From NCBI GenBank assembly GCA_947311585.1, contig CAMZLQ010000014.1, positions 1-51,181 of the forward strand: a stretch of DNA of 51,181 nt, read 5' to 3'. Positions 21,187-23,641 of the stretch are shown one piece after another. The DNA is from an uncultured Alcanivoracaceae bacterium. GTDB taxonomy: Bacteria > Pseudomonadota > Gammaproteobacteria > Xanthomonadales > Marinicellaceae. The position numbers were made by a program, and so were the translations under genes. Below the pieces are notes generated by a model. It saw only the letters and a program-made list of their open reading frames with translations, ran no database searches and was not told the DNA's origin. The first letter of the stretch is position 1. The number at the start of each line of letters is the position of its first letter.

Positions 21187-23094
21187 TTATACTTTATCCG
21201 ATTCTAACGATTTAAAGTGTTCTACAAGTTCAGAAACTGTCATATTCCCTGCATCATCGCCATTGAGTTTTCTCACAGTAACTGTACCGTTTTCCATCTC
21301 TTTATTGCCAACAACCAACATGTAAGCACACTTCTCTAAAGTATGTTCGCGAATTTTATAGCCTATCTTCTCATTTCTCAAGTCTAATTTGACTCTAAAT
21401 CCATTGTTTTTCAATTCTTTTGCTAAATTAGCCGCATATTCGCTTTGTGTGTCCGTAATATTCATAATTACTGCTTGAATTGGTGCAAGCCAAAAAGGCA
21501 AGTTACCCGCATGGTGTTCGATTAAAATCCCTAAAAATCGTTCAAACGAACCCAATATTGCACGATGCAACATGACGGGTGCGTGTTTGTTTCCATCTTC
21601 ACCAATAAAACTAGCATCGAGACGGTTTGGCATGGAAAAATCGACTTGAATTGTGCCACATTGCCAGACACGACCCAAACAGTCTTTTAATGAAAACTCA
21701 ATTTTTGGACCGTAAAAAGCCCCTTCTCCAGGCAATTCTTGCCAATCTAATTTTTTATTGTCTAATGCTGTAGCAAGTGCTTGCTCTGACTTATCCCAAA
21801 TTTCATCACTACCAACACGGTTTTCTGGGCGTGTAGACAATCTATAGATAATGTCAGTAAATCCAAAATCTTGATAAATTTCATGTAAGAAGTCTATAAA
21901 TTCAGAAACTTCATCCTGAATTTGTTCCTCAGTACAGAAAATATGCGCATCATCTTGCACAAAGCCACGCACACGCATTAAACCGTGCAATGCACCTGAT
22001 GGTTCATTACGGTGACACGATCCAAATTCGGCTAGACGAAGAGGCAAATCACGGTAAGATTTTAAGCCTTGGTTATACACTTGAACATGGCAAGGGCAAT
22101 TCATAGGCTTTATGGCAAATTTACGCCCTTCTGATTCTACTGAGAACATATCGTCACCAAATTTATCGGCATGACCTGATCGTTCCCATAAGCTAAAATC
22201 AACCACTTGAGGTGTATTTATCTCTTTATAATCACGAAGGTTTAACTTTGTACGCATGTGTTGTTGCACTGCTTGATAAATTGACCAACCATTTGGATGC
22301 CAAAACACCATACCAGGTGCTTCTTCTTGAAAGTGAAATAAATCCATGCGTTTGCCCAATTTTCGGTGGTCACGCTTTTCAGCTTCTTCCAGCATGTGCA
22401 AATATTGTTTTAAGTCCTTTTTATCACCCCAAGCCGTCCCGTAAATTCGCTGCAGCATTTCATTGTCACTGTTGCCACGCCAATAAGCACCTGCAACATG
22501 CATGAGTTTGAAAACTTTTAATTTAGATGTGTTTGGTACATGTGGACCACGACAAAGGTCAATGAATTCTCCTTGCTTATAAAGGCTTAGTGTTTGATCT
22601 TCAGGAATATCACGAATGATTTCCGCTTTATATTTTTCCCCCATGTTTTCGAACAAAGCAACAGCTTCATCTCGTTTCATGGTGTGACGTTCAACAATAA
22701 GTTTTTGTTTTACAATCCTTTTCATTTCTGCAGTAATCTCTGCCAACTCCTTGTCAGTAAAATGATGTTCACTGGAAAAATCGTAGAAAAATCCATTTTC
22801 AATAACCGGACCAATAGTGACTTGCACCTTAGGGTAAAGGCGTTTAACGGCCTGAGCCATTAAATGGGCTGTCGAATGACGAATCACTTCAAGGCCTTCT
22901 TCATCCCTGCTTGTGACAATTGACAAATCTACATCCGTTGAAATTTCAGTTGATAAATCAACCAATTCCCCATTGATTTTGGCAGCAAGCGCTGCATTGG
23001 CAAGTCCAGGGCCGATATCCATTGCGACATCAAAGGCACTGATAGCTTTATCAAAGCTGCGTGTGGATCCATCTGTTAAAGTAATAATTGGCAT
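21187..23094 (-). CDS. thrS: Threonine-tRNA ligase
   Basis: A 635-residue class II synthetase: N-terminal TGS domain (1-62), editing domain (about 65-225, [11 protein letters not shown] with the zinc-type histidines), catalytic core with the zinc ligand in [10 protein letters not shown] (about 330-339) and motif 2 in [15 protein letters not shown], and a C-terminal anticodon-binding domain from about 535. The ATG at 23094 has only a weak ribosome site (TTAGAT region). It is the first gene of the thrS-infC-rpmI-rplT-pheST-ihfA-merR unit. The leader holds a putative threonine attenuator, described separately, rather than an obvious copy of the E. coli tRNA-like operator. Confidence 0.98.
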
Positions 23095-23118
23095 AATTTT
23101 ATCTAATATATTTAAAGC

Positions 23119-23156
23119 AAAAAAAAAGCACGTAAAGTGCTCAAGCTATTTACGTG
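23119..23156 (-). promoter_or_regulatory. Putative thrS attenuator: alternative hairpins and U9 tract
   Basis: In the minus-strand transcript, CACGTAAA (23149-23156) can pair perfectly with TTTACGTG (23129-23136). Alternatively AGCAC (23137-23141) pairs with GTGCT (23127-23131) around a five-base loop. The two folds share bases 23129-23131, so they exclude each other. Nine U (23119-23127) follow at once. The left arm of the longer hairpin begins 13 bases after the stop codon of the MKTTTTN frame, inside the footprint of a ribosome resting at that stop but free when it stalls on the Thr codons. Which fold is terminator and which antiterminator is inference. Confidence 0.7.
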
Positions 23157-23168
23157 TAAGAGTTATAT

Positions 23169-23192
23169 TTAATTTGTTGTCGTCGTTTTCAT
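23169..23192 (-). CDS. Putative threonine leader peptide MKTTTTN of thrS
   Basis: A seven-residue frame, MKTTTTN, with four consecutive threonine codons (ACG ACG ACA ACA), lies 75 bases upstream of thrS on the same strand. Such a run of codons for the amino acid charged by the downstream enzyme is the hallmark of ribosome-mediated attenuation. No Shine-Dalgarno precedes it. The -10 box ends six bases before the ATG, so the transcript probably begins at or next to the A of the start codon, that is, a leaderless message. Too short for similarity evidence; the call rests on codon content, position and the hairpins that follow. Confidence 0.7.
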   Translation of the reverse strand: MKTTTTN

Positions 23193-23198
23193 CGATGA

Positions 23199-23228
23199 AT
23201 TATAACACTTAGCACAATATTTTGTTAA
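23199..23228 (-). promoter_or_regulatory. Promoter of thrS and its leader
   Basis: On the minus strand a -35 TTAACA (23223-23228) and a consensus -10 TATAAT (23199-23204) are separated by 18 bases. The expected transcription start is at 23193-23192, which coincides with the ATG of the MKTTTTN frame. Confidence 0.7.
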
Positions 23229-23260
23229 AATCTTAAGCTTATTCATTAAAATAATTAATT

Positions 23261-23641
23261 ATGGCAACAAGAATCGATAAATGGCTGTGGTCAACACGTT
23301 TTTATAAGACGCGTTCTTTAGCTAAAAAACACGTAGAAAGTGGTAAGGTTAAAATTACTGGACAGAAGGTCAAACCTTCGCGTGCCGTGCATGTGGGTGA
23401 TGAGTTGACTATAAAGAAAGGCGATTTGACTTGGGAAGTGGAGGTTTTACGTACCATTGATAAACGTGTGGGAGCAAAGATAGCCGTTGAGTGTTATGAA
23501 GAAACTCCTGAGTCAATAAAAGCAAGAGAAGATATTATCACCGAAAGTAAGATGGCATTTTCCTCTGCTCCACGCCCTGCTAAACACCCTGACAAAAAAT
23601 CCAGACGCAAATTGATTAAAATTAAGAAGGACGGTTTTTAA
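23261..23641 (+). CDS. hslR: Heat shock protein 15 (S4-domain ribosome rescue factor)
   Basis: A 126-residue Hsp15 homologue, which binds 50S subunits carrying peptidyl-tRNA and helps recycle them. The S4 RNA-binding domain occupies about 3-62 (RIDKWLWSTRFYKTRSLAKK, then GKVKITGQKVKPSRAV) and the basic C-terminal tail (RPAKHPDKKSRRKLIKIKK) is typical. Divergent from thrS, with overlapping promoter space. A sigma-32 site was not identified. Single gene; the next gene is convergent. Confidence 0.93.
   Translation: MATRIDKWLWSTRFYKTRSLAKKHVESGKVKITGQKVKPSRAVHVGDELTIKKGDLTWEVEVLRTIDKRVGAKIAVECYEETPESIKAREDIITESKMAFSSAPRPAKHPDKKSRRKLIKIKKDGF

Follow-up and report, generated by a model that had tools for sequence, protein, structure and literature searches.

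The window, by which we mean the whole stretch of 51,181 nucleotides analysed here, is part of a 2.24-Mb draft genome of the family Marinicellaceae (order Lysobacterales/Xanthomonadales). It carries on the minus strand an operon in which thrS comes first and is followed by infC-rpmI-rplT-pheS-pheT. The neighbour upstream of thrS is hslR (Hsp15-like), which is divergent and starts at 23261. The thrS promoter must thus fall within 23094-23261, which span about 166 bases, and any terminator located there on the minus strand can act on the thrS transcript only; the terminator of a neighbouring gene was ruled out on the same ground. Analysis of this region led to the following features:

21187 to 23094, minus strand: thrS, threonine--tRNA ligase (NCBIfam TIGR00418, 745 bits)
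23199 to 23228, minus strand: sigma-70 promoter, with -35 element TTAACA (23228-23223), an 18-nt spacer and the extended -10 element TGTTATAAT (TATAAT at 23204-23199)
23169 to 23192, minus strand: leader peptide ORF MKTTTTN*, read as ATG AAA ACG ACG ACA ACA AAT TAA (ATGAAAACGACGACAACAAATTAA), 6 nt after the -10 element
23149 to 23156, minus strand: arm A (CACGTAAA), 5' arm of the proposed antiterminator A:C
23137 to 23142, minus strand: arm B (GAGCAC), 5' arm of the terminator B:C
23126 to 23136, minus strand: shared 3' region C, in which TTTACGTG (23136-23129) pairs with A and GTGCTT (23131-23126) pairs with B
23119 to 23127, minus strand: U tract of nine T, completing an intrinsic terminator with a predicted terminated RNA of about 74 nt

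Read on the minus strand from 23228 to 23119, the order is TTAACA, 18 nt, TATAAT, 6 nt, ATGAAAACGACGACAACAAATTAA, 12 nt, CACGTAAA, TAGCTT, GAGCAC, TTTACGTGCTT and the U tract. The promoter matches the consensus at 11 of 12 positions, has TG before the -10 element and obtained the top score of the region in a promoter scan, and the predicted transcription start is the A of the MKTTTTN start codon or lies at most 1 nt away. A preliminary description of this DNA had reported a consensus TATAAT six bases before an ATG and the peptide MKTTTTN, and sequence, translation and promoter scan bear this out. The 13 bases it gave between the stop codon and the first arm are actually 12 nt, and the two hairpins it noticed are present, but with a common 3' arm and with the pairs CACGTAAA/TTTACGTG and GAGCAC/GTGCTT. 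When ATG-initiated short ORFs of 5-12 codons with at least four Thr were sought together with a near-consensus -10 element 5-8 nt upstream and a T6 run at most 60 nt past the stop, exactly one was found in the 51-kb window, while about 2 Mb of dinucleotide-shuffled sequence (40 shuffles, searched on both strands) gave 18 such short ORFs and none with a promoter. A chance Thr run was ruled out by these shuffles and by the conservation presented below. Genome-wide, TATAAT followed by 6 nt and ATG was found 47 times against 34 for the reversed-pattern control, and since this excess is small, promoter spacing would be weak evidence without conservation.

Hairpins A:C and B:C are mutually exclusive, because arm C is common to both. 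Left free, the leader RNA in the window is predicted to adopt A:C (-10.1 kcal/mol); compared as hairpins, A:C has -9.0 and B:C -6.3 kcal/mol. In every leader compared B:C abuts the U tract, whereas A:C ends 1 base before it in the window's genus and is separated from it by about 3 bases in family f8. In the window's genus A:C itself might therefore be a terminator, and this near contact with the U tract is the main doubt there.

The leader was kept in 9/9 genomes of the genus (g1) that were searched and gave a full-length thrS match, the window's own included. All nine members harbor TGnTATAAT followed after 6-7 nt by ATG, a peptide of seven codons of which three or more are Thr (MKTTTTN, MKTTTTI, MITTTIN, MKTTTKN, MKTTTIT, MKTTTIN), both hairpins and a tract of U8 or longer. 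Leader identity to the window is 71-99% in the eight relatives, while the DNA upstream of the promoter has 32-59% identity in seven of them (L004-L010), a level that unrelated AT-rich DNA roughly reaches in global alignment, and 97% in the closest (L003). Conservation by mere relatedness was ruled out, as the upstream DNA of L004-L010 is unrelated while the leader persists. Concerning the alternative helix A:C, 97.2% of the cells are paired within the genus, compared with 19-57% in slid controls, and compensatory changes occur at one pair (GC/AU/UA/GU) and at another (AU/GU/UA). Arm B was misplaced by MAFFT in L009 and L010, so only A:C was counted there and B:C rests on inspection and folding.

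Across the Lysobacterales/Xanthomonadales, a Thr-containing short ORF before an intrinsic terminator was identified in 53/90 upstream regions of thrS. By group, the leader was present in 9/9 for g1, 19/22 for f8, 5/5 for f2, 2/2 for f3, 5/5 for f4, 3/3 for f5, 1/1 for f7, 1/1 for f10, 4/4 for f11, 3/3 for f12, 1/15 for f9 and 0/1 for f6. It is absent from the sister genera g3 (16/16 without it) and g4 (3/3 without it), as well as from most of f9 (14/15 without it). The distance from the stop codon to the terminator hairpin (arm B) is 20-34 nt and mostly 24-28 (52 leaders). Thr accounts for 37% of the leader residues (151/405), a count that is biased since the ORF in each of the 53 leaders was picked by eye. 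We also used an automated tally, which counts for each amino acid the terminator-bearing loci in which some short ORF contains that residue three or more times. Within the order, it gave Thr for 29/47 terminator loci and only 2 for the next amino acid; outside the order, among 78 gammaproteobacteria, the same scan gave Thr for 0/44 terminator loci. Outside Thr the peptide varies (MKTTTTN, MATTTIHR, MNVSFRTTT, MSTTTAHR), and some leaders have only one or two Thr codons, e.g., MTRAERQH and MNLRERTT.

Several further regularities were observed in these upstream regions. In the f8 leaders (L030, L031, L112-L126, L128, L131) an Arg-Thr dicodon CGA-ACN is invariant (19/19; 17 CGA-ACT and 2 CGA-ACG), even where few other Thr codons exist, and in f2, f11 and f12 the Thr run mostly begins with ACT-ACC. 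Upstream of thrS in g3 (Marinicella, L014-L029) lies TGnTATAAT, followed after a few bases by C and a T run at the predicted transcript start, a pattern that recalls promoters with reiterative U addition. In L152-L156, L170 and L171 (f4, f3) the leader start codon lies within a conserved ACACGATCACCATGACGCGA, which is directly preceded by a small hairpin that covaries (GTTC/GAAC, GTCC/GGAC, GCCC/GGGC).

In 31/53 leaders, namely all 28 of g1 and f8, two of f5 and one of f10, a -10 hexamer precedes the start codon by 6-8 nt. With such a spacing, transcription should begin on the AUG or a base or two away from it, and leaderless initiation is accordingly predicted for these 31 leaders (about 60%). 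The leaderless leader peptide proposed in the preliminary description gains support from this spacing. The remaining 22 leaders have no such hexamer, some of them having instead an SD-like GAGGTG or following a tRNA gene, and families other than those with the leaderless spacing have a 5' UTR; leaderless initiation would thus not be essential to the mechanism. In several families, directly upstream of the thrS leader of L144, L145, L149, L150, L154 and L164, there is a tRNA gene (ending in GCCCACCA), with which the leader may be cotranscribed.

In most leaders, a segment A shortly past the stop codon is complementary to the terminator loop and 3' arm. The A/C arms are, for example, GCAAAGCG/CGCTTTGC in f8, CGCAGAA/TTCTGCG in f4, CGCCCAG/CTGGGCG in f5 and CGCCACGC/GCGTGGCG in f12, and two f8 relatives whose peptides begin alike have TATGCG/CGCATA and CGAGCG/CGCTCG. 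Tested locus by locus, A:C is weak in several GC-rich families, and for this reason a pooled permutation was used. Over 49 distinct leaders, matched A:C arms score 17.9, compared with 12.8 when arms are permuted over all loci and 15.3 when they are permuted within families, the latter controlling kinship partly but not wholly. In neither test did any of 20,000 permutations reach the observed score.

At the level of sequence, then, this leader combines a promoter, a Thr-rich short ORF, an intrinsic terminator and an alternative helix that is conserved and covaries. In our view it very likely acts as a ribosome-mediated transcription attenuator of thrS with charged tRNA-Thr as its signal, and its control probably extends to infC-rpmI-rplT-pheST. 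RNA polymerase would start at the AUG and a 70S ribosome would load on this 5'-terminal codon. With ample Thr-tRNA, the ribosome would get to the stop codon and, with arm A lying 12 nt further on, would crowd that arm, so that B:C folds as a terminator and thrS stays untranscribed. With scarce Thr-tRNA, it would stall on codons 3-6 and leave arm A free to pair with C in the more stable fold, blocking the terminator and allowing transcription of thrS. We infer from sequence both the response to Thr-tRNA and the direction of the switch (ample Thr-tRNA giving termination, shortage giving read-through). The attenuation reading of the preliminary description is, given the conservation in the genus and the order, most probably right, and its spread is wider than was supposed there. 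The comparison of relatives that it proposed gave the expected picture within the genus, with the Thr run, the two arms and the U tract kept while the rest varies, and a deeper form of it across the order.

When the RNA is masked to P-site +15, as by a ribosome at the stop codon, the predicted fold changes from A:C to B:C in L114, L124, L147, L160 and L168, although this static calculation is only indicative, as the free fold is already B:C in several other leaders. The leader of the window changes its fold only when masked to P-site +18 to +19, at the edge of the usual footprint; at +15 arm A would still be uncovered, and about 3-4 nt beyond the standard footprint would be needed to cover it.

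In this genus, a Thr attenuator could also have another geometry, in which A:C and B:C are both terminators and the ribosome, whether stalled or initiating, has its effect through timing or RNA polymerase coupling and not through a choice of fold. The window's A:C, 1 base away from the U tract, exceeds B:C in stability (-9.0 vs. -6.3 kcal/mol), and a ribosome at the stop codon just borders arm A, all of which would suit such an arrangement. However, A:C of other families ends about 3 nt before the U tract where B:C abuts it, and in the larger families it covaries with the terminator loop as an antiterminator would, which leaves this geometry unlikely. Control by a protein, with ThrRS or another factor binding the leader and shifting the balance between A:C and B:C while the Thr codons are secondary, appears more doubtful still. 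That ThrRS of E. coli autoregulates through its mRNA leader is established knowledge, and the CGA-ACN invariance of f8 is a hint that the RNA or the codon context, and not amino acid content alone, is constrained. Against this, no recognisable tRNA-like operator was found in the window's leader, the only stable folds of which are the two hairpins, Thr is the sole amino acid enriched in the automated tally, and the leaders have conserved ORF length, stop position and arm spacing. Finally, the terminator may be constitutive and not a switch of thrS at all; its product, a short leaderless mRNA or sRNA, would then work in trans, either itself or through the peptide. Terminated attenuator RNAs and leader peptides can work in trans, as proposed for peTrpL/rnTrpL of S. 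meliloti (PMC7298713), but a peptide that is free to change outside Thr speaks against a function of its own, and the conserved A:C would be superfluous for a plain terminator; we hold this explanation to be very improbable. Attenuation by ribosome stalling on Thr codons, with A:C as the antiterminator, remains the preferred reading.

Regulation of thrS is known mainly from the autoregulation by ThrRS in E. coli and from T-boxes. The E. coli operator belongs to the same gene and likewise lies in the leader just before it; there, ThrRS binds a tRNA-like leader, control is translational and no leader peptide is involved. The T-box leaders of thrS in Firmicutes sense tRNA-Thr charging by antitermination, like the present proposal, but they bind the tRNA directly and are long and structured, unlike the present leader. 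The enterobacterial thrL-thrABC leader (RF00506) shares with ours the Thr-codon runs, the choice between terminator and antiterminator and the inferred charged tRNA-Thr signal, but controls biosynthesis, whereas the present leader precedes thrS. The thrL peptide is longer, with Ile and Thr codons, and is preceded by an ordinary 5' UTR with a ribosome site. No Rfam match to Thr_leader (RF00506) or to T-box was obtained for the window at the gathering threshold or for 17 relatives at E-values up to 0.5. T-box, Thr_leader and other known RNA families were rejected as candidates, the Rfam matches being tRNAs and chance ones, e.g., microRNA models. Concerning leaderless leaders, the RNA of the S. 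meliloti trpL/rnTrpL begins at the leader AUG, as is predicted here, but its 14-aa peptide has Trp codons and its target is trpE(G) (PMC7298713). In Streptomyces lividans, a leaderless Thr-containing leader (thrL) has been proposed before thrS (PMC8079986). It is of 18 aa with only two Thr and no U tract, and its termination is described as unclear (PMC8079986); it also belongs to another phylum and, unlike the present leader, comes without a covarying antiterminator shown. In full-text searches of a mainly open-access library we found neither a proteobacterial Thr-codon attenuator of thrS nor this layout in the order, and a broad survey of premature terminators does not name thrS by gene (PMC2965389). 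The earlier claim that no Thr attenuator of thrS had been described needs qualification for S. lividans, which offers a weaker leaderless candidate (PMC8079986).

Two further elements lie downstream in the operon. Within the rplT-pheS gap (window 19890-19800, minus strand), a promoter-like TTGATA-18-TAAAAT is followed by a long hairpin (AAAGAGGAA../..TTTCCTCTTT) and U7. This element recurs in L003, L004 and L006, and with stem changes in L008; it is possibly a separate pheST attenuator or an internal terminator, without an evident Phe leader ORF. The infC gene apparently starts with AUC at 21154-21152 (minus strand), 15 codons before the first AUG, giving IAKKHQTRINEAITCMKVRL. This probable AUC start is kept in L003, L006 and L008; infC of E. 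coli likewise has a non-canonical start. In E. coli, leaderless translation is inhibited when more infC is expressed (PMC9031893). As raised IF3 disfavours leaderless initiation, a leaderless sensor placed before the IF3 gene could also read the IF3 level. The switch would then read two signals, Thr-tRNA charging by codon stalling and initiation capacity via IF3/70S availability, an idea that we offer as a conjecture with a small chance of being correct. If true, the IF3/ThrRS/PheRS operon would be coupled not only to threonine but also to the state of translation initiation.

Stalling of the ribosome at cognate codons is the oldest known logic, and most families sampled in this order appear to use it for thrS, perhaps to govern the whole IF3/L35/L20/PheRS operon. 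The attenuator reading also explains a stretch that has no match in Rfam. Through it, the cell would probably make more threonyl-tRNA synthetase when charged threonine tRNA is short. Ribosome loading appears to take place at the very 5' end in about 60% of the leaders found, which makes for a very small complete attenuator (about 74 nt), and the leader may be regarded as a compact natural reporter of threonyl-tRNA charging and of leaderless initiation.
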